Shown one piece after another: positions 11,704-61,845 of a stretch of DNA of 64,000 nucleotides (positions are counted from its first letter, which is position 1; every line of letters begins with the position of its first letter). The DNA comes from Pisaster brevispinus. Its lineage: Eukaryota; Echinodermata; Asteroidea; Forcipulatida; Asteriidae. The stretch spans positions 5,115,421 to 5,179,420 of the forward strand of contig JAMKCF010000006.1 in the NCBI GenBank assembly GCA_023634235.1, written 5' to 3'. Position numbers and translations under genes: made by a program. A model generated the notes under the pieces. The model saw nothing but the letters and a program-made list of their open reading frames with translations, searched no databases and had not been told where the DNA came from.

Positions 11704-12687
11704 TCATCTTGACACACTGAGGCATCCATTTACTTTGGAGTAGACACACCTTACTCCTTCCTTACTCCTTAATGGCGGAGTCTCTGTCAATTCTTCACCG
11801 GTCTCTAGCCGTGGGTCAAAATTCAGTTCAGCGTACGGCAACTCTTCCTGGACCCCCCTGTGCTGTGGTGGCAAGTGCATTGACCAATCACCACTCTGAC
11901 TGTCCCAACTTACAAAATCTACATGTACTCTACTGTCCGCATTTCTGAGTCTGTCATTTTGGTGATTCCGTCGGCATTGACACCTTTTTCTGCGTTTACA
12001 TGTAACCACTATGACTAGAGCAAAGAGAAACATGACAGTACAAGCGCTGCCTACAATCAGGTGCACAACATTCAAATGGGATGCATTGTCCCTAGCAGAG
12101 GGTCTCTTTGTTTCAGTAAAACGAACAACAGTTTGCAACCCTTGCTCTGTGGTTTGACTGACACTTGGGGCACTGAAAGGATCCAAGATTTCACTGACAC
12201 CCTGGGAATGTGTGAGCTCATCGACTGTTGCAGTGGCTGCTGCTGCACTAAGGACAGTGAGAACAGCATCACCTGTGACAGACTTTGATTTGTTTGCCTT
12301 AACATATGCTACACAAAAAAACTCATTGGTGCTGTCCGCCAGTTCTACATTCTTAACTCGTAAGGTAATAAAACGGTCATCAACAAACACAGAATATTTT
12401 TCAGCATCCAAGTTGTCATAAATTGTCTCGCAATCGCTGACATACTCTTGCAGGGTCACATTCCCATGCCATCGCACAATCCAATAAACGAATATCTCTT
12501 CCCTTATCAAGTGCGTGCAGTTAATCGATACCAGTGTTTTGCAAGTTAGATTTACATCATCCCCTTCAATGGCAGTCACATTGTATGGATCGCTAGTAAA
12601 AAACTCCCATCCATAGGACATTTTAAAGGACATGTAAAACAATGTATACAGCAAAGCTAGTGCTCTTAGTGCATTCAATGGTAACAT
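11704..12687 (-). CDS. Single-Ig type I receptor with canonical ITIM (nested gene 1)
   Basis: Predicted cell-surface inhibitory receptor of 327 residues from the chosen Met, which is followed by a hydrophobic signal peptide (LPLNALRALALLYTLFY). The frame stays open 22 codons further up, to 12753, but those codons look like leader or intron sequence. There is one V-type Ig domain: Cys49 and Cys125 (NEFFC) form the core disulfide with Trp69, and an extra pair (Cys57 at Cx7C spacing, Cys86) is shared with the other cluster members. A Ser/Thr-rich stalk follows, then a membrane segment at about 206-229 ending in KRRKR. The cytoplasmic tail has a perfect ITIM, LPYAELNF (Tyr285), and a second Tyr316 in CVYSKV, 31 residues later. 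This resembles the paired-tyrosine tail of CD33-type Siglecs. It is the leftmost and most divergent receptor and has no close duplicate here. The fold and ITIM are visible; the function is inferred. Confidence 0.85.
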   Translation of the reverse strand: MLPLNALRALALLYTLFYMSFKMSYGWEFFTSDPYNVTAIEGDDVNLTCKTLVSINCTHLIREEIFVYWIVRWHGNVTLQEYVSDCETIYDNLDAEKYSVFVDDRFITLRVKNVELADSTNEFFCVAYVKANKSKSVTGDAVLTVLSAAAATATVDELTHSQGVSEILDPFSAPSVSQTTEQGLQTVVRFTETKRPSARDNASHLNVVHLIVGSACTVMFLFALVIVVTCKRRKRCQCRRNHQNDRLRNADSRVHVDFVSWDSQSGDWSMHLPPQHRGVQEELPYAELNFDPRLETGEELTETPPLRSKEGVRCVYSKVNGCLSVSR

Positions 12688-13019
12688 GACAAATGTATTA
12701 GCGGCACTACTGACTGATGAAATGTACTGAAAGTTTTGTAAGTTTCCTAGCATATTTCAAAAGCTTCAGGGTAATGTAACATTTCGCCTGATTTCAATAC
12801 ATTTTATATCAGCACTACGGTCCATCAATCTGTCAAACAGTAAGTTGTGAATGGTTGCCACACACTACATGTAGTTACAATTGTGTAGAACTGTTGTATT
12901 GCAAGTAAGTTTTCCTTCCATGACTTTTAATATGTGTGTCGCGTAAACAAGCAGACAAAGTCAAACTGAAATCTGTTGGATGCATTTGCCGAGCTCTGCT
13001 GGCTGCCGGGTACAATCTT

Positions 13020-18286: not shown

Positions 18287-19417
18287 TCAGTAGACATGTG
18301 GGATGACAGTTGGGGCGAGACAGACTCCTGCAACTATGAAACACCACACGATGAGCCCCATAGAAGAGTGTGCAGCATCTGAAGGAGAGATTGCTGATGA
18401 AGGAGTTCCAGAGTCCTGTGTAGAAATCAGCAGCACTGACCAAGAACTGCTCTGACTGCAATGAGGTTGGTACTCCACCTCACATTTCACTTCAGTTCCG
18501 TTGTCGGCTACAGACGGAGCATTCACTCTGAGGGATTTCCCAGCTTCAAGCAACTCAAACTTATCAGTCTCTCCATCAACGGCTTGTGGTGGTTGGCCAT
18601 TTGAGCGTACAAACCATTTGTAGAAAGAAGGCAGAGCACCAGTGTCACAGTTGAAAGTATATGGCCCACCACTTTCCACTAACTTCATTACTAGAGGTGA
18701 TATAGACACAGGTAACTTGAATGGACCTACTTCACACTGTGAAACACTACAACTTCCCTTGGCGCGGCATGTAAACCTCTCACAGTTGTGAGATTTTCTG
18801 AGATCATGTGTCACATTGTGAAAGTTGCCTTGAGTTGAAGTCTGTTCCAAAGTTTCATTGTTGGAGGAAAACCAGGTGAGTGTAGTCTGACTACCCTTTG
18901 GTTGTTTACAACTTAAAAACAGGTGGTCAGCTTCTTCAAGGACGCTACACTGTGGATAATTGTCGTTCTGTGGTTGACATGTGGGAGACGGTGCTGTTGC
19001 TGATTTCATGATGTTTACATGTAACTGTGCCTCTTCAGATTTACTAAGGTAGTTATTAAAAAAAACACAACTATATATCCCTTCATCTGACGAGGTAACA
19101 TTGGAGATGTTCAACTGATATAAATGTGAAACACTGTCCCAACTTACACTTGCATGTTCAGGCAGTGCAGGTTGTTTATTTTCACAGGTACTTAACATGG
19201 TTTTTTCGGAGGGTTCAAGTTCAGACTTAAATTGCCAATAGATCCATGAAGTTCCACTGCACTGAATGTCTACAGTAGTGGAGCAATTAAACGATACACT
19301 GCTCCCCTCCTCTACAGTCTGATCCTGGGGATGCAGACTCCATTCACCAGACGCTAACCCATGAGACAAACACAGTCCCAGCATCACCATACAAACAATC
19401 ATCACAGATGCCCCCAT
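18287..19417 (-). CDS. Three-Ig receptor A, hydrophobic C-terminus, no signalling tail
   Basis: A 376-residue single-exon protein. The signal peptide is VMIVCMVMLGLCLSHGLASG. Domain 1 is V-like (Cys45, Trp61, Cys117 in EGIYSC, extra pair Cys53/Cys78). Domain 2 has Cys170, Trp182 and Cys217. Domain 3 has Cys257, Trp268 and Cys312. The protein ends SSMGLIVWCF and then IVAGVCLAPTVIPHVY, a hydrophobic stretch reaching the C-terminus after a small-residue SPSDAAHSS spacer. That is the layout of a GPI-attachment signal, although a plain membrane anchor with a tiny tail is possible. There is no tyrosine signalling motif. Domains 2 and 3 share blocks (HNVTHDLRK, NGTEVKCEVEYQP, SSSWSVLLIS) with the ITIM and ITAM-like receptors at 46080-53579. 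It is the first of a tandem trio and retains a 10-residue segment of domain 3 that B and C have lost. Likely a decoy or co-receptor. Confidence 0.85.
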   Translation of the reverse strand: MGASVMIVCMVMLGLCLSHGLASGEWSLHPQDQTVEEGSSVSFNCSTTVDIQCSGTSWIYWQFKSELEPSEKTMLSTCENKQPALPEHASVSWDSVSHLYQLNISNVTSSDEGIYSCVFFNNYLSKSEEAQLHVNIMKSATAPSPTCQPQNDNYPQCSVLEEADHLFLSCKQPKGSQTTLTWFSSNNETLEQTSTQGNFHNVTHDLRKSHNCERFTCRAKGSCSVSQCEVGPFKLPVSISPLVMKLVESGGPYTFNCDTGALPSFYKWFVRSNGQPPQAVDGETDKFELLEAGKSLRVNAPSVADNGTEVKCEVEYQPHCSQSSSWSVLLISTQDSGTPSSAISPSDAAHSSMGLIVWCFIVAGVCLAPTVIPHVY

Positions 19418-19825: not shown

Positions 19826-20132
19826 GCCTTGTTTGGGACAAACTCGCTGGGTGAGAAGTTACATTGCAGATTGTCATCTAGCTGTGGTCGACATGTGGGT
19901 GTGGTGATCGTACTATTAGGTCTAGGTGGTGACTTGAATGATTTGATGATGTGAAGATGTGCATAGCAAAGTTTTGATTTACATTTAGTTAGCAATAAGT
20001 AAACTCCGTTACTGTCAGACATTACATTCAGAAGGTGTAAAAAATATCCTGAACTTGTTCAGTTGACCGTGAACGAGTGATTGTACCCAGTGGGTTTGTA
20101 AGAATTACCTCAACCACTCAGGCAAACATAAC
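19826..20132 (-). pseudogene. Relic of Ig receptor domain 1-2 junction (copy 1)
   Basis: The minus strand reads MSDSNGVY, YAHLHIIKSFKSPPRPNSTI and CRPQLDDNLQCNFSPS, closely matching the domain 1/2 junction of the receptors at 46080-48182 and 52158-53579. Further upstream blocks (TCAGTTGACCGTGAACGAG, CAACCACTCAGG) also match domain 1 at the DNA level. The F-strand cysteine region is scrambled (YLLLTKCKSKLCYAHL instead of YYCQLN), the frame breaks on both sides, and the signal peptide, the rest of domain 2 and domain 3 are absent. It is a broken duplicate that marks a duplication boundary. Confidence 0.75.
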
Positions 20133-23130: not shown

Positions 23131-24237
23131 TCAGTAGACATGTGGGACGACAGTTGGGGCGAGACAGACTCCTGCAACTATGAAACACCACACAATGAGC
23201 CCCACAGAAGAGTGTGCAGCAACTGAAGGAGAGATTGCTGATGAAGGAGTTCCAGAGTCCTGTGTAGAAATCAGCAGCACTGACCAAGAGCTGCTCTGAC
23301 TACAATTAGGTTGGTACTCCACCTCACATTTCACTTCAGTTCCGTTGTCGGCTACAGCTTCAAGTAATTCAAACTGATCAGTCTCTCCATCAAAAGCTTG
23401 TGGTGGTTGGTCATTGGAGCGAACAAACCATTTGTAGGAAGTAGGCAAAGCACTAGTGTCACAGTGGAAAATATAAGGCCCACCACTTTCCACTAACTTC
23501 ATTACTAGAGGTGATATAAACACAGGTAACTTAAAGGGACCTACTTCACACTGCGAAACACTACAATTTCCCTCGGCACGGCATGTAAACTTCTCACAGT
23601 TGTGAGACTTTCTGAGATCATGTGTCACATTGTGAAAGTTGCCTTGAGTTGAAGTCTGTTCCTTGTTGCTGGACACCAAAGTTTCATCGTTGGAGGAGAA
23701 CCAGGTGAGCGTAGTCTGACTACCCTTTGGTTGTTTACAACTTAAAAACAATTGGTCAGCCTCTTCAAGGACGCTACACTGTGGATAATTATCGTTCTGT
23801 GGTGGACATGTGGGAGATGGTGCTTTTGGTGCTTTTATATGTAACAGCGCCTCTTTAGATTCCTCAGGGTTTACATTAAAAAAACTGCAATAATATGTCC
23901 CTTCATCTGACGAGGTAACATTAGAGATGTTCAACTGATATAAATGTGAAGCACTGTTCCAACTTACACTTGCATGTTCAGGCAGTGCAGGTTGTTTATT
24001 TTCACAGGTACTTAACATGTTTTTTTCGGAGGGTTCAAGTTCAGACTTAAATTGCCAAGCGATCCATGAATCTTCAGTGCACTGAATGTCTACAGTAGTG
24101 GAGCAATTAAACAAGACACTGCTTCCCTCCTCTACAGTCTGATCTTGGGGATGCAGACTCCATTCACCAGACGCTAACCCATGAGACAAACACAGTCCCA
24201 GCATCACCATACAAACAATCATCACAGATGCACCCAT
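23131..24237 (-). CDS. Three-Ig receptor B, hydrophobic C-terminus, no signalling tail
   Basis: A 368-residue single-exon paralogue of receptor A with the same architecture: signal peptide, V-like domain 1 with the Cx7C extra cysteine (FNCSTTVDIQC), two further Ig domains, a SPSVAAHSS spacer and the C-terminal hydrophobic segment VGLIVWCFIVAGVCLAP. Compared with A it gains LVSSNK in domain 2 and has an in-frame 30-base deletion in domain 3 that removes GKSLRVNAPS. The deletion is flanked by CAG microhomology. Compared with receptor C, every one of about 17 amino-acid differences lies in the first 143 residues, and the remaining 225 residues are identical. It probably acts at the cell surface as a GPI-linked or tail-less binding protein. 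Its 5' flank is close to that of A. Confidence 0.86.
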   Translation of the reverse strand: MGASVMIVCMVMLGLCLSHGLASGEWSLHPQDQTVEEGSSVLFNCSTTVDIQCTEDSWIAWQFKSELEPSEKNMLSTCENKQPALPEHASVSWNSASHLYQLNISNVTSSDEGTYYCSFFNVNPEESKEALLHIKAPKAPSPTCPPQNDNYPQCSVLEEADQLFLSCKQPKGSQTTLTWFSSNDETLVSSNKEQTSTQGNFHNVTHDLRKSHNCEKFTCRAEGNCSVSQCEVGPFKLPVFISPLVMKLVESGGPYIFHCDTSALPTSYKWFVRSNDQPPQAFDGETDQFELLEAVADNGTEVKCEVEYQPNCSQSSSWSVLLISTQDSGTPSSAISPSVAAHSSVGLIVWCFIVAGVCLAPTVVPHVY

Positions 24238-32770: not shown

Positions 32771-33080
32771 TTAGCCTTGTTTGGGACAAACTCGCTGGGT
32801 GAGAAGTTACATTGCAGATTGTCATCTAGCTGTGGTCGACATGTTGGTGTGGTGATCGTACTATTAAGTCTAGGTGGTGACTTGAATGATTTGATGACGT
32901 CAAGATGTGCATAATCAAAGTTTTGATTTACATTTAGTTAGCAATAAGTAAACTCCGTTACTGTCAGACATTACATTCAGAAGGTGTAAAAAATATCCTG
33001 AACTTGTCCAGTTGACCGTGAACGAGGGATTGCACCCAGTGGGTTTGTAACAATGACCTCAACCACTCAGGCCAACATAA
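32771..33080 (-). pseudogene. Relic of Ig receptor domain 1-2 junction (copy 2)
   Basis: A paralogue of the relic at 19826-20132 with the same scrambled F-strand and the same break points, so it was broken before the segment duplicated. It lies immediately against the right end of the 8.1-kb element. Confidence 0.75.
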
Positions 33081-35986: not shown

Positions 35987-37093
35987 TCAGTAGACATGTG
36001 GGACGACAGTTGGGGCGAGACAGACTCCTGCAACTATGAAACACCACACAATGAGCCCCACAGAAGAGTGTGCAGCAACTGAAGGAGAGATTGCTGATGA
36101 AGGAGTTCCAGAGTCCTGTGTAGAAATCAGCAGCACTGACCAAGAGCTGCTCTGACTACAATTAGGTTGGTACTCCACCTCACATTTCACTTCAGTTCCG
36201 TTGTCGGCTACAGCTTCAAGTAATTCAAACTGATCAGTCTCTCCATCAAAAGCTTGTGGTGGTTGGTCATTGGAGCGAACAAACCATTTGTAGGAAGTAG
36301 GCAAAGCACTAGTGTCACAGTGGAAAATATAAGGCCCACCACTTTCCACTAACTTCATTACTAGAGGTGATATAAACACAGGTAACTTAAAGGGACCTAC
36401 TTCACACTGCGAAACACTACAATTTCCCTCGGCACGGCATGTAAACTTCTCACAGTTGTGAGACTTTCTGAGATCATGTGTCACATTGTGAAAGTTGCCT
36501 TGAGTTGAAGTCTGTTCCTTGTTGCTGGACACCAAAGTTTCATCGTTGGAGGAGAACCAGGTGAGCGTAGTCTGACTACCCTTTGGTTGTTTACAACTTA
36601 AAAACAATTGGTCAGCTTCTTCAAGGACGCTACACTGTGGATAATTATCGTTCTGTGGTTGACATGTGGGAGACGGTGCTGTTGGTGCTTTTATATGTAA
36701 CAGCGCCTCTTTAGATTCCCCAGGGTTTACATTAACAAAACTGCAATAATATGTCCCTTCATCTGACGAGGTAACATTAGAGATGTTCAACTGGTATAAA
36801 TGTGAAACACTGTCCCAACTTACATTTGCATGTGCAGGCAGTGCACGTTGTTTATTTTCACAGGTACTTAATATTTTTTCAGCGGAGGGTTCAAATTCAG
36901 ACTTAAATTGCCAAGCGATCCATGAATCTTCAGTGCACTGAATGTCAACAGTAGTGGAGCAATTAAACGATACACTGCTCCCCTCCTCTACAGTCTGATC
37001 TTGGGGATGCAGACTCCATTCACCAGACGCTAACCCTTGAGACAAACACAGTCCCAGCATCACCACACAAACAATCATCACAGATGCACCCAT
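35987..37093 (-). CDS. Three-Ig receptor C, hydrophobic C-terminus, no signalling tail
   Basis: A 368-residue single-exon paralogue of receptor B: signal peptide ending SQGLASG, V-like domain 1 (Cys45-Cys117 core, Cys53/Cys78 extra pair), two more Ig domains and a C-terminal hydrophobic GPI-type or short membrane segment. It shares the LVSSNK gain and the 10-residue domain 3 deletion with B. Domain 1 differs at many surface-type positions, for example SEFEPSAEKI against SELEPSEKNM, RALPAHANVSWDS against PALPEHASVSWNS, and FVNVNPGES against FFNVNPEES. At some of these (DSVSHL, TAPSPTCQP) C agrees with A rather than B, which points to mosaic ancestry. Likely role as for B; its ligand may differ. 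Confidence 0.86.
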   Translation of the reverse strand: MGASVMIVCVVMLGLCLSQGLASGEWSLHPQDQTVEEGSSVSFNCSTTVDIQCTEDSWIAWQFKSEFEPSAEKILSTCENKQRALPAHANVSWDSVSHLYQLNISNVTSSDEGTYYCSFVNVNPGESKEALLHIKAPTAPSPTCQPQNDNYPQCSVLEEADQLFLSCKQPKGSQTTLTWFSSNDETLVSSNKEQTSTQGNFHNVTHDLRKSHNCEKFTCRAEGNCSVSQCEVGPFKLPVFISPLVMKLVESGGPYIFHCDTSALPTSYKWFVRSNDQPPQAFDGETDQFELLEAVADNGTEVKCEVEYQPNCSQSSSWSVLLISTQDSGTPSSAISPSVAAHSSVGLIVWCFIVAGVCLAPTVVPHVY

Positions 37094-39823: not shown

Positions 39824-40234
39824 GAATTACAAAAGGCTTGATGCAGCCCAAAGCTAAAACCTAAATTGTCCGTGAATATGGCATCTATCGGGAACAGGTA
39901 GTCAAGTGGGAACTGTTTATTTCTTATGGTTCATTTCATGTAAGGAAAATAACAGACAAGAAATTACTAGATAGCTGCTACATGTAGTAAGTAGTTTACA
40001 AGTTCCCATGGGATTCCTTCCCAAATTTATAACAATAATAATGTACATTTATAACGTGCCATGACGGTCATAAATGACACTCCTGGCGGCGAGTTATTAA
40101 ATTTGGTGGAGATTGTTAAGATTGATGTTATAAGACGGTGCAACCATAATACAAACACAAAACAATGTCAGGTGGTGTCTTTATGATAAATGCAGTGGGT
40201 TCTTTTACATGCATTACACAAAACAGAGGATGTA

Positions 40235-40390
40235 CAGCTTTACGTCCCATCTGAAGAACGAAGCAGTAATAGTCAATTGTCTTGCTTTAAGGACACAAGT
40301 GTCAAGACCAGGACTCTAACCCACATCTTCTGATCATAAACACCCCGGCCAGAGCTTGAGTCTGGTTCACACAAATTACTGTAGTACAAG
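40235..40390 (-). repeat. tRNA-Leu-type SINE, decayed minus copy
   Basis: CTTTACGTCCCATCTGAAGA, CTTGCTTTAAGGACACAAGTG and ACCAGGACTCTAACCCACAT are the reverse complement of blocks in the complete plus copy at 49964-50240. Confidence 0.6.
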
Positions 40391-46079: not shown

Positions 46080-48182
46080 TTACAAAAGCTCCAAGGAACT
46101 GTTATTTGCATCTGTATTCATCGCTGCGTATACTACTTGCTGCTGATTCTCTGCCTCGCGGTTCTCCCTGAAATCAGTGCGAGGGTGCCCTCCAAGCTCC
46201 AGCTCGGCATATGTGATTGCTGCGGCATTCGAGTCATCCGGGCTATAATGCTGAATGGATGCTGCTGGGAGGGTCTGTTCAGCAGTAGTTGAACGATGGT
46301 CGCCATCTGGTGGACATGATGATGATGCAGTGCCTTCAGACACTTGATTCACTTGATTCACAGTGGTCAGTCTAGTCCCTACTCTACGCTCTGGCACTGT
46401 GCTACATGCACTTGCAGGTGTTATGGACTCTGAATCATCCTGGAATCCAACTATGTCTTGCTCGTGGCTTGTCATGGGTCTCACAGATGACTTATGCTTG
46501 CTGGAAACTGTGTAGATTGCCTCCCCTACTTCGATCCGAGTTACACTGGCAACGGGCTCCTTTGGATTCCCTTCTGCACCATCCTGGAATCCCCCTATGT
46601 CTTGGTCTTGCTCGTGGCTCGTCGTGGGTCTCGCAGACGACTTACGCTTGCTGGAAACTGCGTAGATTGCATCCCCTACTTCAATCCGAGTTACACTGGC
46701 AACGAACTCCTTTGGATTCCCTTCTGCACCATCCTGGAATCCCCCTATGTCTTGGTCTTGCTCGTGGCTCGTCGTGGGTCTCGCAGACGACTTATGCTTG
46801 CTGGAAACTGCGTAGATTGCATCCCCTACTTCAGTCCGAGTTACACTGGCAACGGGCTCCTTTGGATTCCTTTCTGCCCATCCAACCATTTCAACATCAT
46901 CAACATTACCACTGCTTGGGCTGCAAGGTGGTTGCTCATGGGATCGTTTGTGAAAACAAAGCAGATAGAACGCAACGCCTCCAATGATGGCCAGAAGGAA
47001 AAGCAAAGCGACCCCTCCTCCGATCAGGAGTTCTACGTAGTTGCTTATCTTATTGGATGGACTCTGATCAGATGACAGATGAGTGTACGTGTATGCTGAA
47101 TCAGATGGTGGAGTAGTCATGTGGGAGGCTGAAATCAGCAGCACTGACCAAGAGCTGCTCTGACTGCAATTTGGCTGGTACTCCACCTCACATTTCACTT
47201 CAGTTCCATTGTCGGCTAAAGACGGAGCCTTCACTCTTAGGGATTTCCCAGCTTCAAGCATTCTGAACTGATCAGTCTCTCCAACAGCTTGTGGTGGTTT
47301 ATCACTCCAGTTTCTGCGTATAAACCACTTGTAGTCTGCCACTGTCGTAGATTCCGTGTTACAGTGAAAAATCCCCATAATTTTTTCAACCACAGTCAAA
47401 ATGGAAGGCGAAAGAGAAACTGGTAACTTGAATGGAATCACTTCACACTGCGAAACACCACAAAACTTTGCATTTGACTGGGCCAGGCAGGTGAATCGTG
47501 CACAGTTATCATCCTTTCCAAGAACATGTGTCACATTGTGAAAGTTCTCCTGAGACAAAGTCTCTCCCCCATGGGAGGCTAGTGTAAGATTCTCAGAGGA
47601 CCAGGTGAGTGTGTCCTGACCTCCCGCTGGTTGTCTGCATCTTAAAGAAACCTGCTCACCCTCTCTGGGGTCGCTGGGTGAGAAGTTACATTGCAGATTG
47701 CCATCTAGCTGTGGTCGCCATGTGGCTGTGGTGATCGTACTATTAGGTCTAGGTGGTGACTCGAATGGTTTGATGACGTGAAGATGTGCATAATCAGAGG
47801 GTAAAGTTGCATTTAGTTGGCAATAGTAAACTCCGTTACTGTCAGACGTTACATTCAGAAGGTGTAAAAAATATCCTGAACTTGTCGAGTTGACCATGAA
47901 CAAGTCATTGTACCGAGTGGGTTTGTAAGATTGAAAGCAACCACTCAGGCCAACATAACCGTCTAGGTTTTCAAAAGTTTCATAAACCCAATGAATGGTA
48001 GGAAAACCTGCTTTGCAAATCATTTCATCAGCTGCCTGACACATAAAAGTGACATTACTTCCCTCTGTTACATTCTGACTTGCTGGATGCACACTGAAAT
48101 ACTCCCTGTCAGAGTCAGTTGCCAGACCAAGAGATGAACCCCTTATCAGAAACACAACTGTCACATACATCAATGCATTCAT
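46080..48182 (-). CDS. Three-Ig inhibitory-type receptor, long repeat tail with ITIM and YxxM
   Basis: A 700-residue single-exon type I membrane protein. The start is placed at the second in-frame Met because TTTGCAG directly precedes GATG, a good splice acceptor, and the upstream 10 codons look like leader. The signal peptide is followed by ATDSDREYFSV. Domain 1 has Cys48, Trp65, Cys121 and an extra Cys56/Cys82 pair. Domain 2 has Cys182, Trp194 and Cys232. Domain 3 has Cys274, Trp286 and Cys331. The membrane segment lies at about 384-410. The 290-residue tail has three 50-residue repeats (about 439-586), each with one AIYAVSS or AIYTVSS tyrosine (Tyr457, Tyr507, Tyr557). After them come a perfect ITIM, ITYAEL (Tyr658), and VVYAAM (Tyr685), which fits the YxxM PI3K-SH2 consensus. 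The ectodomain is nearly that of the neighbour at 52158-53579, but the tail is unrelated. Predicted inhibitory partner of that pair. Confidence 0.88.
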   Translation of the reverse strand: MNALMYVTVVFLIRGSSLGLATDSDREYFSVHPASQNVTEGSNVTFMCQAADEMICKAGFPTIHWVYETFENLDGYVGLSGCFQSYKPTRYNDLFMVNSTSSGYFLHLLNVTSDSNGVYYCQLNATLPSDYAHLHVIKPFESPPRPNSTITTATWRPQLDGNLQCNFSPSDPREGEQVSLRCRQPAGGQDTLTWSSENLTLASHGGETLSQENFHNVTHVLGKDDNCARFTCLAQSNAKFCGVSQCEVIPFKLPVSLSPSILTVVEKIMGIFHCNTESTTVADYKWFIRRNWSDKPPQAVGETDQFRMLEAGKSLRVKAPSLADNGTEVKCEVEYQPNCSQSSSWSVLLISASHMTTPPSDSAYTYTHLSSDQSPSNKISNYVELLIGGGVALLFLLAIIGGVAFYLLCFHKRSHEQPPCSPSSGNVDDVEMVGWAERNPKEPVASVTRTEVGDAIYAVSSKHKSSARPTTSHEQDQDIGGFQDGAEGNPKEFVASVTRIEVGDAIYAVSSKRKSSARPTTSHEQDQDIGGFQDGAEGNPKEPVASVTRIEVGEAIYTVSSKHKSSVRPMTSHEQDIVGFQDDSESITPASACSTVPERRVGTRLTTVNQVNQVSEGTASSSCPPDGDHRSTTAEQTLPAASIQHYSPDDSNAAAITYAELELGGHPRTDFRENREAENQQQVVYAAMNTDANNSSLELL
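46440..46880 (-). repeat. Three 150-bp in-frame tandem repeats in receptor tail
   Basis: Direct repeats with an exact 150-base period (GGATTCC at 46564 and 46714), so each adds 50 residues without shifting frame. Copies 1 and 2 are nearly identical; copy 3 is shortened by a DQ deletion in SHEQDQDIGG to SHEQDIVG. The opposite strand is also open across the array, but only as a shadow. Confidence 0.9.
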
Positions 48183-49020
48183 CCTGCAAAGGTAGGTATC
48201 TAGCCTCGTCAATGATCACAAATAATGGCTTACTTTTCATAAAACAGTTTTGGTAAAGTTACATGCAAGCATCCCATTTAAAATGACAAAGGCTTGTGAT
48301 GAGTTTCTGCATTTATACTCTACATAAATATACCCAAAACCACTGTTTTCTCACAACTAAAAACCTAAACAAAATATTAGACTTTCACTTCCTCATAGTG
48401 AGTTGAACATGACATCCTCAACAAGAATGTTTTTACATTGCCAATGTACACTCATTAGATAAACAATACCAATACAATACTACATCTGTAGTCATACATT
48501 GTTTGTTATTTTTATTTAGCCCCTTATGAGCCAGAACTAAGTACATGAAAAGCAAAAAGGAGTAATATTTCCAGACTGTAAGGGTGCAAAAGGAGCAATA
48601 GCAGGATCTGCTCTAACTGTCCATTGACTAGCCGATGAAACCAGTTAACTAGTCCACCAGCTTCTTCACATAATAATAATAATAATTAAACAATAATTCT
48701 TTATAGTGCTTTATTGATGGGCATCTCAAAATGCTTTTTCAAGACAGGTTTTGGAGCACCTTTCAAGGTTAGGGTACCTTACAAGATGCTGCAGCGCATA
48801 AAAGCAGCCACTACCAGAAATATCGGGGCAAACCCCTTCTCTCAATAATGTAAAACTGGGTTCTTTTACATGGATTACATGTAGACAAAACACAGGACAA
48901 ACGGCTTTAAGTCCCATCTGAAGGATGAAGCAATGTTAGTTAAGTATCTTGCTAAAAGTACACAAGTGACAAAACCAGGACTCGAACCCACACTCTGCTG
49001 AACAGAAAAATCAGAGCATT
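48183..49020 (-). repeat. Duplicated 5' flank of the ITIM receptor (pairs with 53580-54440)
   Basis: About 830 bases upstream of this receptor are closely paralogous to those upstream of the ITAM-like receptor at 53579, with an offset near 5.4 kb. They share the acceptor-like TTTGCAG|GATG, CACTTCCTCATAGTGAGTTG (CATTTCCTC in the other copy) and a SINE remnant. Promoters of the two genes are therefore probably similar. Confidence 0.75.
48690..49015 (-). repeat. tRNA-Leu-type SINE, minus copy
   Basis: The reverse-complement order is GGGTTCGAGTCCTGGTTTTG (B box), then AGCAAGATACTTAACTAACA, then TTCAGATGGGACTTAAAGCC, then ATGTAAAAGAACCCAG. It matches the complete copy at 49964-50240. A paralogous copy is at 54090-54430. 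Confidence 0.7.
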
Positions 49021-49182
49021 AATATGATGTATTGGCTCTCTGCAGATTGTTATGAGGGTTTTCAAGATTTTATTGCATGCTTTTCAAATCTACTGTGCTT
49101 CAAAGTGCAATTGTGTGATGGTATTCGTAAATTCTCAAGCTTCACAGCATGCATATAATACAATATTATTGTCGCTTAGGCT

Positions 49183-49420
49183 TATGTGTAAATACAAAAC
49201 TTTGGAATGACCTCCCAATTGAAATTCGTCAATCACCTTCTTTGGATACATTCAAAACCCTGTTGAAAACCTATTTATTTGAGCAATAGGTTACTTTAAT
49301 CTGTTTTGTATGTTTGCCTGTTTGTTCGTTATTTCGTTTTTCTTTTTTCTTAATGCGCAGCGAGCGTCGAAAGACGGAACGTGCGCTATATAAGTATCCA
49401 CTATTATTATTATTATTATT
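49183..49420 (+). mobile_element. LINE 3' tail fragment
   Basis: A plus-strand frame reads KLWNDLPIEIRQSPSLDTFK and then TLLKTYLFEQ stop, the reverse-transcriptase C-terminus of CR1/L2-like LINEs. It is followed by GCGCTATATAAGTATCCACT and an (ATT)n tail, the typical 3' end. Confidence 0.75.
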
Positions 49421-49654
49421 AAATGGGTTTTTTTTTAATGAAAGTGTTCCCTTGGGTTGTGAGAACCTCTATCCTTCTGTTGGAACACTTATTAAGGATT
49501 GTGTTCACCCAAAAACAAACATACTGAACACTTGTTCAGACTTACTGCCAATGGTAGTCATAGATTTTCCCGCTAGCACCACAGGGTTTTAAATATTCAC
49601 AAGCAGTTTTTAATTGAATCCTAGGGTGCACAATGGTCTACGTGTTTGAATTTG

Positions 49655-49760
49655 GCGTGTCGTGGCCGAGGGGTTCACCGAACCCGAGCTCTGGTGTTGT
49701 CAGTAGCAGAGTGTGGGTTCAAATCCCGGTCGTGACACTTGAGCCATTAACCATAGTTGC
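49655..49760 (+). repeat. tRNA-derived SINE head
   Basis: GTGTCGTGGCCGAGGGGTTC (A box, Leu/Ser tRNA style) and GGGTTCAAATCCCGG (B box) are 60 bases apart. The tail differs from the copy at 49964. Confidence 0.6.
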
Positions 49761-49963
49761 TTCATAAAAAATTGGGAAGGTATCAGTGCATTCTGCTCTA
49801 CCAGCCAGGCTCCTAGTGGATGATACCCATGCCTACATCCTTACAGACTGTGAAGGGAGTTTCCCCGTTCAGCCCCAGGAGTAGGTGGCATTGTCCCCTT
49901 GAAGTGGCCGTCTGGCCTTGTGAAATCAGGCAATATCTAATAAATTATAATAATAATAACTAG

Positions 49964-50400
49964 TTCTGAAGTGTCGTGGCTGAGCAGTTAAGAGCACCGA
50001 ATTCAGACTCTGGTGTTTCTGATCAGCAGAGTGTGGGTTCGAATCCCCAGCTGTGACACTTGTGTCCTTAAGCAAGACACTTCACCATTGCTTCGTCCTT
50101 CGGATGGGACGTTAAGCCGTTGGTCCCATGTGTTATGTAACGCATGTAAAAGAACCCAGTGCACTTATCCAAAAGAGAAGGGGTTCGCCCCGGTGTTTCC
50201 TGGCCCGATCGGCAGCAAATTGCACCACAGCACCTTGTAAAACATTACATGGTGCTATCAGAATTAGGTCTCATAATTCAAACGTAGTCCCAAATCTTGC
50301 AGGAAATACTGTATGTTACAGCGCCAGGAGCGTCACTGAGTGACGGACATGTGTGCTATATAAGAAGCCACTATTATTATTATTATTATTATTATTTCTT
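49964..50400 (+). repeat. tRNA-Leu-type SINE, most complete copy, with (ATT)n tail
   Basis: The A box GTGGCTGAGCAGTTAAGAG and B box GGTTCGAATCC (50036-50046) lie at tRNA-Leu spacing. The body follows with GCAAGACACTTCACCATTGC, GGATGGGACGTTAAGCCG and GTAAAAGAACCCAGTGC. It ends GTGCTATATAAGAAGCCACT and (ATT)n, a tail also seen on the local LINEs, suggesting shared retrotransposition. Confidence 0.78.
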
Positions 50401-50660
50401 ATATAGCGCATTTCACAATAACGTCTCAATGCGCTTTACATTAGTGCCCTGGTCATTGGGCCAATAACATTCCTGTAATCTTTCTCAGCTCCCTGGGGAG
50501 TATACAGCCTGGGCTGCCGTGGTGCTCCGAAGGCTGTTTCAAACACAATATCAACCTCTACCCTCGCACGTACCCATTTATACTCCTGGGTGAAGAGAAG
50601 CAATTATAGTAAAGTATCTTGCTCAAGGACACAAGTGTCATGACCGGGATAATATAATAT
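50395..50660 (-). repeat. SINE/LINE-type 3' end, minus orientation
   Basis: Begins ATTTCTTATATAGCGCATTT, the reverse complement of the GCGCTATATAAG tail, abutting the plus copy tail to tail. Continues to GAAGCAATTATAGTAAAGTA and then CTTGCTCAAGGACACAAG. Confidence 0.6.
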
Positions 50661-50904
50661 CTCATAGAAAAACAATTCATCGTGCAGAAAGTAAACTTTT
50701 TCGAATCAAGAAACCATACATTACATAGTTAAAAATTGTGTTAAAAATCTTGACACAAACATTGCAGGTGTTGCATTTGTGGGGGAAGACAATATAAACT
50801 ACAGTGTGATACATTTATCCCCCATGCAAAAATTAACATTCTTTTAAATCATTGCGGTACCTGCGAATCCTAGCGATTCGGACCTGCATCTAGCCATCCG
50901 GCTA

Positions 50905-51050
50905 GCTTGGTAGTCTGGTAATAGGACATCTGCTTTAGCAATGCAAAGATTGAGGGTTCAGATCCCACCTGAGTATTTGGCCTGTGGATTTTTTTCACAG
51001 AACTCAGGAAAGTACCAATTATACAGTGCTTAAAACACATCGATGTAAGA
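50905..51050 (+). repeat. tRNA-derived SINE, copy 2
   Basis: The head AGCTTGGTAGTCTGGTAATA, the B-box-like GGGTTCAGATCCC, and the tail CCTGTGGATTTTTTTCACAG then AACTCAGGAAAGTACC share the layout of the SINE at 6606. Confidence 0.65.
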
Positions 51051-51690
51051 GGAAATTAAAATTATACAAGACATGCGTTTGTAACGTTACAAACACTGCA
51101 GGATTTTGGTTGTTGGAACAAAAAGAGAAAATTACATGCCATTGTATCCAAAATCTTTAATTTGGTCGAAAACCCTGAAAAAACTCTTTGAACTTGCTTT
51201 TTGGACCATAAGAAGTAAAGTAGTGTTCAAAGTGGGACCATGCCAGGAACTTTGGTGGAAATAATCCGTTGATTTTACATTGGACAACAAAAACCATTAA
51301 AAATCCCTTTAACGCTTTTACATCATTTTTATTTCTCACACTTGATCCATAACGGTTTGCTGTGTGAACTCTCCCCGAGAGGGCGCAATACAAGTCTACT
51401 GAAGCAAATTTTCAATGAAAGTGGTCGGCTGGCCAATTATTATCACAAGAGGGCGCTAAACAAGTTCATCATTGAAAGTGAAGTCGTAAAATGTTATGCA
51501 ATCATGATGTCATGTTGTTTATGTTCTAAGTTAGGGCATATGCTCTGAGTTGATGTATTGGTTGTGCTGTTTGTGACTGTAGTATCTGAGATCGAACCTT
51601 CACAAATTTCACGTGTTATAGCATAGAAAATCGCTCGCATGGAAGAATAATAATTATTTTTTTTTTTTTTATCTCAACAAAAACAAAGGT

Positions 51691-51720
51691 GGTTTCGGCG
51701 GATGGCCGAAACCCCCAATT
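51691..51720 (+). repeat. Solo hairpin terminus of a related element family
   Basis: GGTTTCGGC-GGATG-GCCGAAACC forms a 9-bp stem with a 5-base loop, followed by CCCCAATTA and preceded by a T run and ACAAAAACAAAGGT. The architecture equals GTTCGGC-TGTTA-GCCGAAC at 32642-32770, with a different but related stem. Confidence 0.5.
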
Positions 51721-51806
51721 ATTTTTCAAAGATGCAAAAATTAACATCTATTTTAATCACTGCGGTACCCGCTGCTAGGATTCAGACCTGCCTCTAGCCA
51801 TCGGTC

Positions 51807-52030
51807 TAGCTCGGTGGTCTAGTGGTAAGACATCTGCTTTAGCAATACAAAGGTCATGCAATACAAAGGTCGTAGGTTCGAATTCTACCCAAACGATTTA
51901 CATGTGGATTTTTTCACAGAACTCAAGAAAGTTCTGAGTATATACATGTAGTGCTTAAAACACATCAGTGATGAGCACCTTTTTCAGGCGGATACTGGCG
52001 CTATACTAAGTATTCTTTATTATCATTATT
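51807..52030 (+). repeat. tRNA-derived SINE, copy 3
   Basis: The intact A box TGGTCTAGTGGTAAGAC and B box GGTTCGAATTC are separated by a duplicated CAATACAAAGGTC block. The tail is GGATTTTTTCACAGAACTCA followed by AGAAAGT, and the end is GGCGCTATACTAAGTATTC plus ATT-rich sequence. Confidence 0.75.
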
Positions 52031-52157
52031 ATTATCATTATTATAAAAAACCAAGTTAAACAGCACACACCTTCTAATTTTTTAGTTCCCTATTGGAAAA
52101 TTACTTAGACATAACTTGGCGATGATGGATGATAAAACTTCCCTAGCATTTGGACGA

Positions 52158-53579
52158 TCATTCGGATGAGACTTGCACATCATCATAAACATGGTCGTTT
52201 TTCATTTCAAAGTTGAGGGCAGTGTAATCATCCCGAGACTTGTCACTGCTCCTGGTGGGGGTGCTCCTTGCTTCCATCAGACCAGCTCCAGGAGCTCCAA
52301 TGGTGGGGGCAGCGGCCCTCAATAAGATGACCCAGACTCGGTTGATCAACACACAGAGACCGCATCCAGCTACAAAACTGCCGACTGTCGCTCCAATGAT
52401 ATGCCCCCATGAAAACTTGACACAAGTAGTGTCTACTTCCAGTGAGAAATCGGAAGTTGGACTCAGCTCAGGTGAAAGATGAGTGTATGCTGAATCAGAT
52501 GATGGGGTAGTCACCTGGGAGGCTGAAATCAGCAGCATAGACCACGGGCTGCTACGACTGCAATTGGGCTGGTACTCCACCTCACATTTCACTTCAGTTC
52601 CATTGTCGGCTAAAGACAGAGCCTTCACTCTTAGGGATTTCCCAGCTTCAAGCAATCTGAACTGATCAGTCTCTCCAACAGCTTGTGGTGATTTATCACT
52701 CCAGTTTCTGCGTATAAACCACTTGTAGTCTGCCACTGTCAAAGACTCCGTGTTACAGTGAAAAATCCCCATACTTTTTTCAACCACAGTCAAAATGGAA
52801 GGCGAAAGAGAAACTGGTAACTTGAATGGAATCACTTCACACTGCGAAACACCACAAAAGTTTGCATTTGACTGGGCCAGGCAGGTGAATCGTGCACAGT
52901 TATCATCCTTTCCAAGAACATGTGTCACATTGTGAAAGTTCTTCTGGGACAAAGTCTCTCCCCTATGGGAGGCTAGTGTCAGATTCTCAGAGGACCAGGT
53001 GAGTGTGTCCTGACCTCCCACTGGTTGTCTGCATCTTAAAGAAACCTGCTCACCCTCTCTGGGGTCGCTGGGTGAGAAGTTACATTGCAGATTGTCATCT
53101 AGCTGCGGTCGACATGTGGTTGTGGTGATTGTACTATTAGGTCTAGGTGGTGACTCGAATGGTTTGGTGACGTGTAGATGTGCATAATCAGAGGTTTGAG
53201 TTACATTGAATTGACAATAGAAAACTCCGTTACCGTCAGACGTTACATTCAGAAGGTGTAAAAAATATCCTGACTTTGTCCAGTTGACCGTGAACGAGTG
53301 ATTGTTCAGAGTAGGAGTGTAAGCATGACCGCAACCACTCAGGCCAACATAACCATCTAGGTTTTCAAAAGTTGCATAAACCCAATGAATGGCAGGAAAA
53401 CCTGCTTTGCAATTCATTTCATCAGCTGGCTGACACATAAAAGTGACATTACTTCCCTCTGTTACATTCTGACTTGCTGGATGCACACTGAAATACTCCC
53501 TGTCAGAGTCAGTTGCCAGACCAAGAGATGAACACCTTATCAGAAACACAACAACTGTCACATACGTAAATGCATCCAT
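52158..53579 (-). CDS. Three-Ig activating-type receptor with ITAM-like tail
   Basis: A 473-residue single-exon type I membrane protein, started at the second in-frame Met for the same reason as the ITIM receptor (TTTGCAG|GATG). It has three Ig domains: Cys49/Cys122 with extra Cys57/Cys83 and Trp66; Cys183/Cys233; Cys275/Cys332. Domains 2 and 3 are nearly identical to those of the receptor at 46080-48182, while domain 1 is clearly more divergent, especially between the extra cysteine and the F strand. The stalk and everything after it differ. The membrane segment lies at about 394-412 with an Asn-Arg at its inner edge, then the short tail APTIGAPGAG, RDDYTALNFEMKN and HVYDDVQVSSE. YTAL-x9-YDDV (Tyr452, Tyr465) is close to an ITAM (YxxL-x6-12-YxxL/I), with acidic residues before the first Tyr. 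This tail is shared with 55527-56315. Predicted activating partner; an SH2 adaptor site is the alternative reading. Confidence 0.87.
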   Translation of the reverse strand: MDAFTYVTVVVFLIRCSSLGLATDSDREYFSVHPASQNVTEGSNVTFMCQPADEMNCKAGFPAIHWVYATFENLDGYVGLSGCGHAYTPTLNNHSFTVNWTKSGYFLHLLNVTSDGNGVFYCQFNVTQTSDYAHLHVTKPFESPPRPNSTITTTTCRPQLDDNLQCNFSPSDPREGEQVSLRCRQPVGGQDTLTWSSENLTLASHRGETLSQKNFHNVTHVLGKDDNCARFTCLAQSNANFCGVSQCEVIPFKLPVSLSPSILTVVEKSMGIFHCNTESLTVADYKWFIRRNWSDKSPQAVGETDQFRLLEAGKSLRVKALSLADNGTEVKCEVEYQPNCSRSSPWSMLLISASQVTTPSSDSAYTHLSPELSPTSDFSLEVDTTCVKFSWGHIIGATVGSFVAGCGLCVLINRVWVILLRAAAPTIGAPGAGLMEARSTPTRSSDKSRDDYTALNFEMKNDHVYDDVQVSSE

Positions 53580-54440
53580 CCTGCAAAGGTAGGTATCTAG
53601 CCTCGTCAATAATCACAAATAATGGCTTACTTTTCATAAAACAGTTTTGGTAAATTTACATGCAAGCATCCCATTTAAAATGACAAAAACTTGTGATGAG
53701 TTTCTGCATTTATACTAGTACATAAATATACCCGAAACCACTGTTTTCTCACAACTAAAAACCTAAACAAAATATTAGACTTTCATTTCCTCATAGTGAG
53801 TTGAACATGACATCCTCAACAAGAATGTTTTTACATTGCCAATGTACACTCATTACATGTAGATAAACAATACCAATACAATACTACATCTGTAGTCATA
53901 CATTGTTTGTTGTTTTTATTTAGCCCCTTATGAGCCAGAACTAAGTACATGAAAAGCAAAAAGGTGTAATATTTAAAGACTGCAAGGGGTGCAAAAGGAG
54001 CAATAGCAGGATCTGCTCTAACTGTCCATTGACTAGCTGATGAAACCAGTTAACTAGTCCACCAGCTTCTTCACATAATTATAATAATGATTAAAAACTA
54101 ATTTTCTATAGCGCTTTATCAATGAGCGTCTCAAAGTACTTTGTTAAGACAGGTTTTTGGAGCACCTTGTAAGAATACGGTACCTTACAAGGTGCTGCGG
54201 CGCATTCAGCGGCCACTGCCAGAAATACAGGGGCAAACTCCTTCTCTCAACAATATGTGAAACTGGGTTCTAGACAAAACACAGGACAAACAGCTTTAAG
54301 TCCCATCCGAAGGATGTCGGTTAAGTATCTTGCTTTTAAAGTACATAAGAGACAAAACCAGGACTCGAACCCAGACTCTGCTGAACAGAAACACCAGAGC
54401 TCAAGTCCAGTTCGATGGCTAGGCCACAACACGCGATATT
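53580..54440 (-). repeat. Duplicated 5' flank of the ITAM-like receptor (pairs with 48183-49020)
   Basis: Paralogous to the 5' flank of the ITIM receptor, including ACATAAATATACCC, CATAGTGAGTTGAACATGAC, the (AAT)-rich stretch and the minus SINE remnant at 54090-54430. Confidence 0.75.
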
Positions 54441-55526
54441 CTTTTAAACTCTGTCCATATTCTTTTAAACACTGAACTAAACAGCCAAACCACTTGGAAA
54501 ATTTGTTGACTTGTCAACAAGAGTTGAAACTACTATTTGATGAGCAGACCGCTGAAAGGATGAATGCTTGGCCATCCCCCCTCCACCCCCCACCCTGTAA
54601 ATTAATTCCCATGATGGTACACAAATTATTTGTTTTACCCCAAGTACTAGGACGGCACATCCGACACCACTCCCCCTCCCCATCCCCTTGTCAAATGACT
54701 CAAGTATAAACCAGAAAGTTCCTTTTAATAAGCTGTGACTGGGTTGAGTAAACACACATCTTAGCTGGGCTAAAAACAGCTAACGGACCACTGGCCTGAG
54801 TGCTGGGCTTTCTGCACTGAGCCAGTAACCTGTAAAACGGAAACAAACCCAGCAGACCTGCGCTTTGAAAACTAATATTTACCCATTTATTCTTTTAGTT
54901 TTTAGTACAAACTTCTTCCTAAACAATCACAACCAAGAGAGAAATAATTGTAGTTTAAAACTTTTTGAAATAATTGTAAGTAATTTATTTTTTAGCTTTT
55001 AAGTAAAAACAAAACATGTATGTATATATTTGGAGTATTGTCTTTTCAAAATATATGTATTTTCTGAAAGTACAAGACCTGTGGGCTTGTTGACAATTTC
55101 TAAGAATTTCGGCCATTGCATTTACTGCAAGTAATTTATGGAAACTTAATTTTAAATATAATAAAACTGCGGCCAAGTTCAAAATCTTACAGAGAGAAAT
55201 TCCTCAATCAAAGAATTGGTTGTTAAAATCGTAATTTGAGGTGCCTTTGTTAAAAATATTGCCTAGGAGTTTTTCAAATGAATCCTTTGGTATGTACGGT
55301 CTTTGTGTTTGTATGAGTTGTACAGAATTCAAACATTTTCAAATCATGCAAACACCGTACATTAGGGCTTACATGTACAAAAATGTCTTCAAAATCTTGA
55401 CATAAACATTACAGTTGTTGCATTTGTGAACGTTCTAGTTTTTTGCGTTCCCTATTGGAAAATTACTTTACAACTAAACATAACTTGTCGCTGACAAATA
55501 ATCAAACTTCCCTAGCATTTGGACGA
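54440..55526. other. Gene-free stretch between receptors
   Basis: Nothing recognisable apart from a CCC-rich patch (54580-54690) and AT-rich sequence. From about 55440 (TTCCCTATTGGAAAATTACT) the sequence matches 52080-52157 and is the duplicated 3' flank shared by the two ITAM-like receptor genes. Confidence 0.6.
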
Positions 55527-56315
55527 TCATTCGGACGAGACTTGCACATCATCATAAACATGGTAGTTTTTCATTTCAAAGTTGAGGGCAGTATAATCAT
55601 CTCGAGACTCGTCACTGCTCGTGGTGGGGGCGCTCCTTGCTTCCGTCAGACCAGCTCCAGGAGCTCCAATGGTGGGGGCAGCGCCCCTCTTCCAGATGAC
55701 CCAGACTCGGTTGATCAACACACAGAGACCGTATCCAGCCACAAAACTGCCGACTGTCGCTCCAATGATATGCCCCCACGAAAACTTGCCACGAGTAGTG
55801 TCTTCTTCCAGTGGGCGGTCCAAAATGGGGTAAGGAGTGATGATGAGAGGCGGTTTGGACTGGTGCAGGTTGGACTTTGGTGATGAGGCTGTCTTGAGTC
55901 TCAACTTTGCCTTGCCGGACTCACTGTGCTCCATGGTTGCACATAGTGAACAAGTATATAATATTCTGCAATAGTATGTACCCACGTCTGATTGCTCAAC
56001 TTGTGGAATTTCTAGCTTGTACAAAGGACATGCCCAACTGGCATTGTACAGGATTTTATGCTTGTGGTACACATGATTCAAACTAGCAATGTACTCATCT
56101 GGTTCATCCACAAACTGGAACATCCATAAAATGGTGAAATTGTCTTGACTCTTGCAGTCTACACGCTCTGACGTCTTGCACGTGAAAGTTGCCTTCTCTC
56201 CTTCCAATAATTTCTGACTTGCTGGATCCAGACTGAAGTAACTTGAGGCAGATGTGAAACCGGAGGCTGAGCAACTTATTAGAAACACGCCCAAAACAAG
56301 GATGAGTGAATCCAT
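55527..56315 (-). CDS. Single-Ig activating-type receptor with shared ITAM-like tail
   Basis: A 262-residue single-exon membrane protein started at MDSLILVLGVFLISCSASG, because TTTAG|GATG directly upstream mimics the acceptor of its neighbours; the frame is open 13 codons further. It has one V-type Ig domain: Cys46, Trp64 and Cys116 in DVGTYYC, with the family extra Cys54 (Cx7C) and probable partner Cys96. A Pro-rich stalk leads to a membrane segment (GHIIGATVGSFVAG) and a tail nearly identical to that of 52158-53579 at both DNA and protein level. Tyr241 lies in YTAL and Tyr254 in YDDV, with an additional Tyr251 where the neighbour has Asp. The ectodomain is unrelated in detail to that neighbour, so the anchor-tail module has been joined to two ectodomain types. 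It is the receptor closest to the KTI12 first exon. Confidence 0.86.
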   Translation of the reverse strand: MDSLILVLGVFLISCSASGFTSASSYFSLDPASQKLLEGEKATFTCKTSERVDCKSQDNFTILWMFQFVDEPDEYIASLNHVYHKHKILYNASWACPLYKLEIPQVEQSDVGTYYCRILYTCSLCATMEHSESGKAKLRLKTASSPKSNLHQSKPPLIITPYPILDRPLEEDTTRGKFSWGHIIGATVGSFVAGYGLCVLINRVWVIWKRGAAPTIGAPGAGLTEARSAPTTSSDESRDDYTALNFEMKNYHVYDDVQVSSE

Positions 56316-61000: not shown

Positions 61001-61680
61001 GCCTACAAAGTACAAGCCATACAAGCCCTCAAAAATGTTTAAAAAGCGTGCACGCAAAATTGTCACCCTTGGGAGCCAATGAATCAGTGTTGTTTCTCAG
61101 TACATCCTACCACTACCACAGGGGTTAGCTGTTTAGGGGTTAGTGACCAGAGGTATCGACACAGTGCACTACCCATACTCCATCTACTACTAGTACTAGT
61201 ACTCGAGGCTGCACCCCCCGCCCCCAAATTAATTCTGTGTGGGAAATCTGCTTGAACCTTAACTACGGAGATACATAAATAATCCTATACTTACCATAAG
61301 TTTAGTAACACGGTCAAAACATTCACACGTGCAAATTGACGCGCCATCATCATCATCAAGCACTATCCTCTACAATACAACTTAGATTATGATGCACTTA
61401 TGATTATTTGACACTTGAGGGCGCTATCGAAAGTAAACATTTATTTTCGTGATGCGCTCTCTGCACGCACACACGTAAAGGGGCTGATCTATCATCACTG
61501 AGCAACCAGTTGGAGCTTTTTGTCACTATTCCCTGTTTAACAGTACTGATCAAAATGATTACACAGGCCCTATGTAAATATAGATTATTTTATAGTCTTA
61601 CATCAAAGCAATTCACGCCACTATTTCGATGTTTTCCACCAGTCAACGAGGACTTGTTTCGACCACTTCTCTTGATTCTG
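58065..61680. other. Divergent intergenic region between KTI12 and DUT
   Basis: About 3.6 kb without a supported coding exon. It holds a repeat (58190-58340) shared with 3060-3200, a minus SINE (58340-58550) and AT-rich unique-looking sequence. The KTI12 promoter should lie just right of 58064, but I see no clear TATA, CCAAT or GC box there. The pentanucleotide-like ACTACTAGTACTAGTACTCG at 61184-61205 is a small repeat. Confidence 0.55.
58340..58550 (-). repeat. tRNA-Leu-type SINE, minus copy
   Basis: The reverse complement reads GGCCGAGGGGTTAAGACC (A box) and GGGTTCGAGTTCCAG (B box), then CTTGAGTAAGATACGTCTTTACC and GGACATTAAGCC. It is a clear member of the 49964 family. Confidence 0.75.
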
Positions 61681-61691
61681 TCACGTTATAG

Positions 61692-61757
61692 CTCCGCCCA
61701 CAACCGTAAAATGATTGGCATGCGAAGAGGAATGCTGGGAAAGGCTTCGCGCCAAAA
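61692..61757 (+). promoter_or_regulatory. DUT promoter: GC box, inverted CCAAT box, E2F site
   Basis: Three classical elements occur within 66 bases: CTCCGCCCA (61692-61700, GC box), ATTGGC (61714-61719, inverted CCAAT) and TTCGCGCCAAAA (61746-61757), whose complement TTTTGGCGCGAA is a perfect E2F consensus. dUTPase genes are S-phase, E2F-driven genes in animals, so this fits the product encoded 90 bases downstream. It also argues that transcription starts after 61757 and that upstream in-frame ATGs (61510, 61711) are not used for the main form. Confidence 0.72.
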
Positions 61758-61845
61758 TCAAACAGAGTACCGCGAAAATGTCCATTTCTCGAATAATTCT
61801 TCTACCGATTCCGTCGTGACATCAAGCACAGTCACACTCAAGCCA

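Follow-up and report, generated by a model that had tools for sequence, protein, structure and literature searches.

Paired immune receptors are best known from vertebrates, and the locus described here raises the question of whether a sea star possesses such a pair. The two genes concerned, designated R1 and R2, lie in a stretch of 64,000 nucleotides from Pisaster brevispinus (GenBank assembly GCA_023634235.1, contig JAMKCF010000006.1, positions 5,115,421 to 5,179,420), which is referred to as the window and numbered from its first base. We consider it reasonably probable that R1 and R2 encode paired immunoglobulin (Ig) receptors of the cell surface, one with a tail of the immunoreceptor tyrosine-based inhibitory motif (ITIM) type and the other with a tail resembling the immunoreceptor tyrosine-based activation motif (ITAM). 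One type of ectodomain and promoter is fused in DNA to two unrelated cassettes of transmembrane segment (TM) and tail, of which the R2 cassette is also present in a neighboring gene, G7. Judged from the sequences, the paired-receptor layout of similar ectodomains, unrelated TMs and tails, and clustered genes is genuine.

Ectodomains and tails of R1 and R2

Both receptors are encoded on the minus strand by fully open reading frames (ORFs) at the positions given in the initial annotation, R1 at 46080..48182 (700 aa from its ATG) and R2 at 52158..53579 (473 aa from its ATG). The inhibitory-type R1 consists of a signal peptide, a V-type Ig domain (D1), domains D2 and D3, a stalk, a TM and a tail, and the activating-type R2 has an R1-like ectodomain (signal peptide, V-type Ig, two further Ig-like domains and stalk) followed by a TM and tail unlike those of R1. 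The signal peptide is indeed shared, with 4 of 24 aligned residues differing, and the changes previously estimated by eye at about seven in D2 and eight in D3 proved exact (7/117 and 8/97, leaving 110 and 89 residues identical). D1, which had been left uncounted, differs at 22 of 111 aligned residues (89 identical) and holds the largest share of the differences, 22 of the 46 within the first 372 residues. Thirteen of these 22 fall in the C'-D and F-G stretches, which are CDR2- and CDR3-like and make up 27 of the 111 residues (permutation p 8e-5), and with strictly drawn loops 10 of the 22 fall in 20 of the 111 residues (p 6e-4). These p-values are descriptive, since the stretches were drawn from model strands after the positions of the differences were known and the predicted local distance difference test (pLDDT) score is 45-62 at residues 71-100.

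Only general Ig models exceed the Pfam cut-off in R1 and R2, and a phmmer search of the PDB with R2 returned 46 sequences at E<=0.1, the best being SYG-2 (E 0.0035) and none being named as a SIRP, Siglec, LILR or CEACAM. The matches listed by Foldseek and VIA comprise antibodies, titin and further Ig chains, with no paired-receptor family named as a matched chain among them. The structure model of the full R2 is poor (mean pLDDT 44.2, with ten-residue blocks at 45-86 in D1 and <=30 in D3), as is a separate model of D2-D3 (mean 46.9), and for this reason the assignment of D3 as an Ig domain rests on sequence, namely two Ig_3 stretches together with cysteines and a tryptophan picked by eye.

The tails are unrelated. 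Translation confirms that the R1 tail is 290 aa long and contains ITYAEL and YAAM. The former (46200..46217, minus strand) matches the canonical ITIM consensus, [ILVS]xYxx[ILV], and the latter (46119..46130, minus strand), which is not a strict ITIM, is a YxxM motif of the PI3K-p85 type. The R2 tail extends 61 residues past the hydrophobic core and holds the ITAM-like motif YTAL-x9-YDDV (52176..52226, minus strand). When motif chances were estimated from 20,000 residue-shuffled tails, a loose ITAM with V allowed at +3 arose in shuffled R2 tails with a chance of 0.006. In terms of inhibitory and activating motifs, R1 has a canonical ITIM and R2 has the loose ITAM pattern only. The motif and its nine-residue spacing are retained in R2, in G7 (55527..56312, minus strand, 261 aa; one V-type Ig, V-set 25.6 bits against a cut-off of 26, followed by a TM and the R2-type tail) and in the database protein P0004 (partial, 165 aa, starting inside an Ig domain and bearing a G7-type tail), with YDDV as the second motif in all three. 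The TM of R2 was checked for a DAP12-type basic residue; its most hydrophobic 19-mer, IIGATVGSFVAGCGLCVLI, is uncharged, and NR stands at its inner edge.

A 150-bp tandem repeat (46455..46883, minus strand; 2.9 copies, 94% matches) also lies within the R1 tail and encodes about three units of ~50 aa, each with one tyrosine in the form AIY(A/T)VSS (AIYAVSS or AIYTVSS). Compared in pairs (three comparisons), the units show 9-15 codons with a changed residue and 0-3 with a silent change. The repeat multiplies a tyrosine motif and is possibly length-polymorphic.

Stalk junction and shared flanking DNA

The change from one tail to the other can be placed precisely. At the DNA level R1 49017-47058 aligns to R2 54400-52458 and the alignment then stops in the stalk, where a complete switch had been proposed, and R2 52444-52069 matches G7 55813-55430 instead of R1. 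The breakpoint, for which a nucleotide alignment had been suggested, is thereby mapped to the 13 nt between the R1-like end and the G7-like start (recombination junction, 52445..52457, minus strand). The cassette of TM, tail and 3' flank common to R2 (52069..52444, minus strand) and G7 (55430..55813, minus strand) is 90.1% identical over 384 columns, with 22 of 25 aligned bases identical at its start, 246 of 262 (94%) in the TM and tail, and 78 of 89 (88%) in the 3' flank, whereas the best local match between the tail DNA of R1 and that of R2 is only 15 nt long. In the protein alignment, the residues of R2 encoded immediately ahead of the G7-like DNA (PTSDFSLEVDTT) align with P0004 (PASNCSLELDTT), so that the R1-type and G7-type homologies nearly abut in R2.

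Because R1-like DNA gives way to G7-like DNA within 13 nt in the stalk, R2 is a mosaic formed at the DNA level within an open frame, its 5' portion being of R1 type and its 3' portion of G7 type. The tail swap is assigned to the DNA because the change lies inside the ORF and because the 5' flank (R1/R2) and the 3' flank (R2/G7) were carried along, in agreement with the DNA recombination first proposed. For R1 and R2 the accompanying suggestion of single exons is based on their open frames; colinear database proteins back it only for the tailless relatives described below. In G7 this cassette follows a one-Ig ectodomain, and in P0004 it follows an Ig domain like that of G7, a pattern suggesting that this Ig-plus-tail combination is old. 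R1 may alternatively be the gene whose tail changed.

The homology of R1 and R2 extends well upstream of the coding sequence. The promoter-proximal regions of R1 (48183..48643, minus strand, end approximate) and R2 (53580..54040, minus strand) are ~97% identical over ~450 bp (13/453 differ), and TATAAA occurs at -135 in both (48312-48317 and 53709-53714, minus strand). Farther out, the outer edge of a repeat resembling a tRNA-derived short interspersed nuclear element (SINE), at 48817..49017 on the minus strand with the B-box-like GGTTCGAGTCC, forms the 5' limit of the homology, and a copy stands at the same limit of the R2 block (54185..54400, minus strand). Further copies of this repeat have their ends <=16 nt from the same point of the repeat, and beyond the block the flanks of R1 and R2 match at E 0.20 at best. 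Retroposition, considered as the source of the pair since the ORFs show no introns, was rejected because the upstream DNA and the repeat are duplicated too. The tRNA-SINE-like family also occurs at 50008-50199, with two shorter matches at 40196-40340 and 58369-58483, and the B-box-like GGTTCGANTCC is found in three copies.

Divergence is uneven along this block. Distal upstream DNA (R2 54040-54400, the outer part being the repeat) differs at 41 of 356 sites, more than the 13/453 of the promoter-proximal part (p 1e-6) and, at p 0.049, more than the ectodomain synonymous sites outside the C-terminal half of D1; the R2/G7 3' flank (11/89) likewise exceeds the promoter-proximal value. Any of three causes would explain this contrast: homogenization of the promoter and ectodomain, constraint, or fast mutation of the repeat. 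Within the ectodomain, the DNA of the C-terminal half of D1 differs at 25 of 165 sites against 26 of 648 in D2 and D3 (p 2e-6), with nonsynonymous (dN 0.174) and synonymous (dS 0.169) divergence both raised. Positive selection in D1 was considered; the ratio of nonsynonymous to synonymous changes is 20:6 there and 18:8 in D2 and D3 (p 0.76), and selection is not demonstrated because synonymous change is raised as well. Local exchange or a hot patch would account for this pattern just as well as selection would.

The surrounding gene cluster

R1 and R2 belong to a group of seven intact family members within 45 kb, all on the minus strand, so the pair has a wider context than had been described for it, both G7 with its R2-type tail and the members G1 to G4 having been left out. 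G1 (11704..12753, minus strand, 349 aa) has one Ig-like domain, a TM and a tail in which LPYAEL fits the ITIM consensus by eye and VYSKV follows further along. Its Ig-like domain is weak (I-set E 0.021, below the cut-off; 26% identity to G4, E 3e-4), and no DNA match of >=60 bp at E 1e-5 to G1 was found elsewhere in the window. G2 (18287..19417, 376 aa), G3 (23131..24237, 368 aa) and G4 (35987..37093, 368 aa), all on the minus strand, are tailless, with three Ig-like domains and a C-terminal hydrophobic stretch. By hydropathy only, the best hydrophobic 19-mer ends 4 residues before the C terminus in each, and the three are probably anchored by glycosylphosphatidylinositol (GPI).

Protein database searches, one of which scored the 7993 best-sharing candidates, produced four distinct homologues, namely P0004 and the three retrieved with R2 as the query: P0001, P0002 from Asterias amurensis (Asteriidae, Forcipulatida; 62% identity to G3) and P0003 (83% identity to G3). 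The latter three are all tailless with a hydrophobic end. The Asterias homologue points to a forcipulatid starfish as the likely source of the window, in line with the probable echinoderm origin first proposed.

G3 and G4 lie in a segmental duplication (21629-24650 and 34487-37524) with 96.5% DNA identity over ~3 kb, and more repeat families occur at the same ~12.86 kb spacing, which suggests a longer duplication. Two orphan pieces of the C-terminal half of an R-type D1 were also found on the minus strand, one at 19844..20132, ~430 bp upstream of G2 and interrupted by stops, and one at 32792..33080, between G3 and G4 and carrying stops and a frame change. Their identity is ~90% with R1 and ~88% with R2, and they are relics or possible conversion donors. 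A comparison of site patterns among R1, R2 and the two fragments gave 14 sites unique to R1, 17 unique to R2, 19 separating R1 and R2 from both fragments, 6 and 7 changes in single fragments, and 2 others; no site linked each receptor to a different fragment. Given these patterns, neither receptor is a simple copy of an orphan fragment, and the test gives no support to the fragments as donors of the D1 C-terminal patch.

Several further elements were observed in the window. A ~1.1-kb repeat with 95% identity, probably a mobile element, is found at 16787-17875 (inverted relative to the others), 25837-26936 and 28734-29834. A weak Rfam tRNA match at 51808-51896 (30.1 bits, gathering 29, E 0.029), for which ARAGORN made no call, falls in a stretch repeated at 50824-51041. 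A plus-strand ORF of 184 aa at 61510-62064 has no Pfam family at E 0.1; its end resembles the start of a dUTPase.

Interpretation and comparison with known systems

We infer the functions of the R1 and R2 tails, expression included, from the features described above, and propose the following scheme. Both receptors would be made in the same coelomocyte-type cells, as the common promoter-proximal DNA implies, and their V-type D1 would meet the same or overlapping ligands, as the common ectodomain suggests. Bound R1 would recruit an SH2 phosphatase and damp the cell, possibly also engaging PI3K via YAAM, and bound R2 would act on a Syk-type kinase through the ITAM-like tail that it carries itself, triggering uptake or killing. 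Decoys or shed binders are possible roles for the relatives that lack a tail and are probably GPI-anchored. DNA recombination or gene conversion, with its 5' limit at the SINE-like repeat and its junction in the stalk, would have given rise to the pair and may keep the two alike, with the D1 loops diverging meanwhile. A Syk transcript has been reported in Patiria eggs (PMC11593052) and sea urchin slp76 has been modelled (PMC5431462).

Certain findings weigh against this scheme. Any ITIM consensus occurs in shuffled R1 tails with a chance of 0.21, and the bare consensus is weak evidence because 21% of such tails contain one. The strict ITAM pattern Yxx[IL]-x6-12-Yxx[IL] is absent from R2, the second motif of which ends in V, so that the earlier designation of this tail as ITAM-like stands for the loose pattern and fails for the strict one. 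YAEL, YAAM, YTAL and YDDV all fit the endocytic YxxPhi consensus, which would be expected if R1 and R2 were uptake receptors whose tyrosines are mainly sorting signals, with R1, R2 and the tailless forms differing in trafficking and not in the sign of a signal. It is also open for the ITAM-like motifs of CEACAMs whether they serve internalization or activation (PMC2832619). This explanation seems unlikely to us: YxxPhi would require neither the full ITYAEL context nor the nine-residue spacing that R2, G7 and P0004 retain, and the tighter form [ILV]xYA[ED]L arises in shuffled R1 tails with a chance of 1e-4, albeit for a form picked after the motif was seen.

Neither a homologue of the R1 tail nor a three-Ig ectodomain on an R2-type tail was found among the four database homologues, the ectodomain dN/dS is 0.79 with no domain significantly off 1, and selection of either sign is not shown; the main text of a proteomic study of coelomocyte surface markers in Asterias rubens lacks the terms 'immunoglobulin', 'Ig-like' and 'Syk' (PMC13409769). 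The missing tail relative and the overall dN/dS, together with the G3/G4 duplication and the interrupted orphan fragments, would also suit plain duplicated paralogues, one of them unexpressed or drifting, in a fast-turnover cluster where recombination gave them different tails as a neutral side effect. Set against that are the fully open frames of R1 and R2, a dN/dS of 0.60 in D2 and D3 (not significantly below 1) and the retention of ITAM-like motifs in G7 and P0004, and we judge neutrality to be less probable still than the uptake explanation. An artefact of assembly or haplotype, in which an R1 allele was misjoined to G7 to give R2 or in which R1 and R2 are alleles placed in tandem, is very improbable; the proximal divergence of 13/453 lies within the allelic range of some marine invertebrates, but by segment R2 differs by 3-15% from R1 and by 6-12% from the G7 cassette, where a misjoin would be nearly identical to both, and the unmatched flanks beyond the homology block also speak against it.

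The reading of R1 and R2 as a pair of inhibitory and activating type would, if correct, supply the study of coelomocytes with two defined receptors and a class resembling decoys, in a phylum that is not known to have antibodies. A close echinoderm pair with opposite tail types in single-ORF genes, having both the DNA junction and a tail relative in one window, looks new: no paired ITIM/ITAM receptors in an echinoderm appeared among the titles and abstract starts listed from a collection with few subscription journals. The allorecognition candidates of Hydractinia (Alr) offer one invertebrate comparison. They carry ITIM and ITAM/hemITAM motifs, as do the fester co-receptors (FcoR) of Botryllus, which contain Ig domains and are clustered in the fuhc locus; the oligomorphic FcoR have these motifs swapped between alleles and by alternative splicing (PMC12065747), whereas in the starfish two neighboring genes carry the swap as a fixed DNA difference. 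The oyster receptor CgIgIT2 has five Ig domains and an ITAM of its own, and, in contrast to R1 and R2, no inhibitory partner sharing its ectodomain is mentioned in the passages on it (PMC11999971). Paired receptors have been proposed to originate when inhibitory receptors are exploited by pathogens and the host responds with activating copies (PMC5112662); a clear pair outside the vertebrates, with a junction of ~13 nt and the tail carrier adjacent, makes this idea testable in an independent lineage.

The initial annotation had likened the pair to the SIRP, PIR, LILR and Siglec families. The likeness of layout stands, as Siglec-5/14, Siglec-11/16, SIRP and LILR/PIR also combine very similar ectodomains with opposite outputs, and the similarity of Siglec-11/16 is reported to be due to gene conversion (PMC5701461); these families are analogues in logic, with no sequence membership found in Pfam or by PDB phmmer at E<=0.1. 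Activators of the Siglec, KIR and LILR type are described as signaling through DAP12 by way of a positive charge in the TM (PMC2832619), whereas R2 has its own ITAM-like motif. We contend that the CEACAMs are the closest match in logic to this receptor set, because activating CEACAMs bear their own ITAM-like tail and primates include GPI forms, although no sequence kinship was found in Pfam or by PDB phmmer at E<=0.1. The CEACAMs of mammals and Xenopus (CEACAM1, CEACAM3 and GPI-anchored members among them) are clustered and carry very similar V-type domains on ITIM, ITAM or ITAM-like and, in primates, GPI-anchored forms, their similarity is kept by gene conversion or recombination, and the CC'C''FG strands are diversified in Xenopus (PMC2832619, PMC5112662). 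It can be tentatively speculated that starfish independently built a CEACAM-like array of single-exon genes with three outputs (ITIM, own ITAM-like tail and GPI), in which recombination within the stalk re-pairs entire modules of ectodomain and tail and the CDR2/CDR3-like part is diversified locally, possibly from the orphan D1 fragments, amounting to a germline-plastic recognition system. The arrangement of the DNA differs between the two: the binding domain and TM of CEACAMs are reported on separate exons and some conversions in X. tropicalis are exactly limited to the N exon, whereas in the starfish a single open frame spans ectodomain and tail, and the junction lies inside it.

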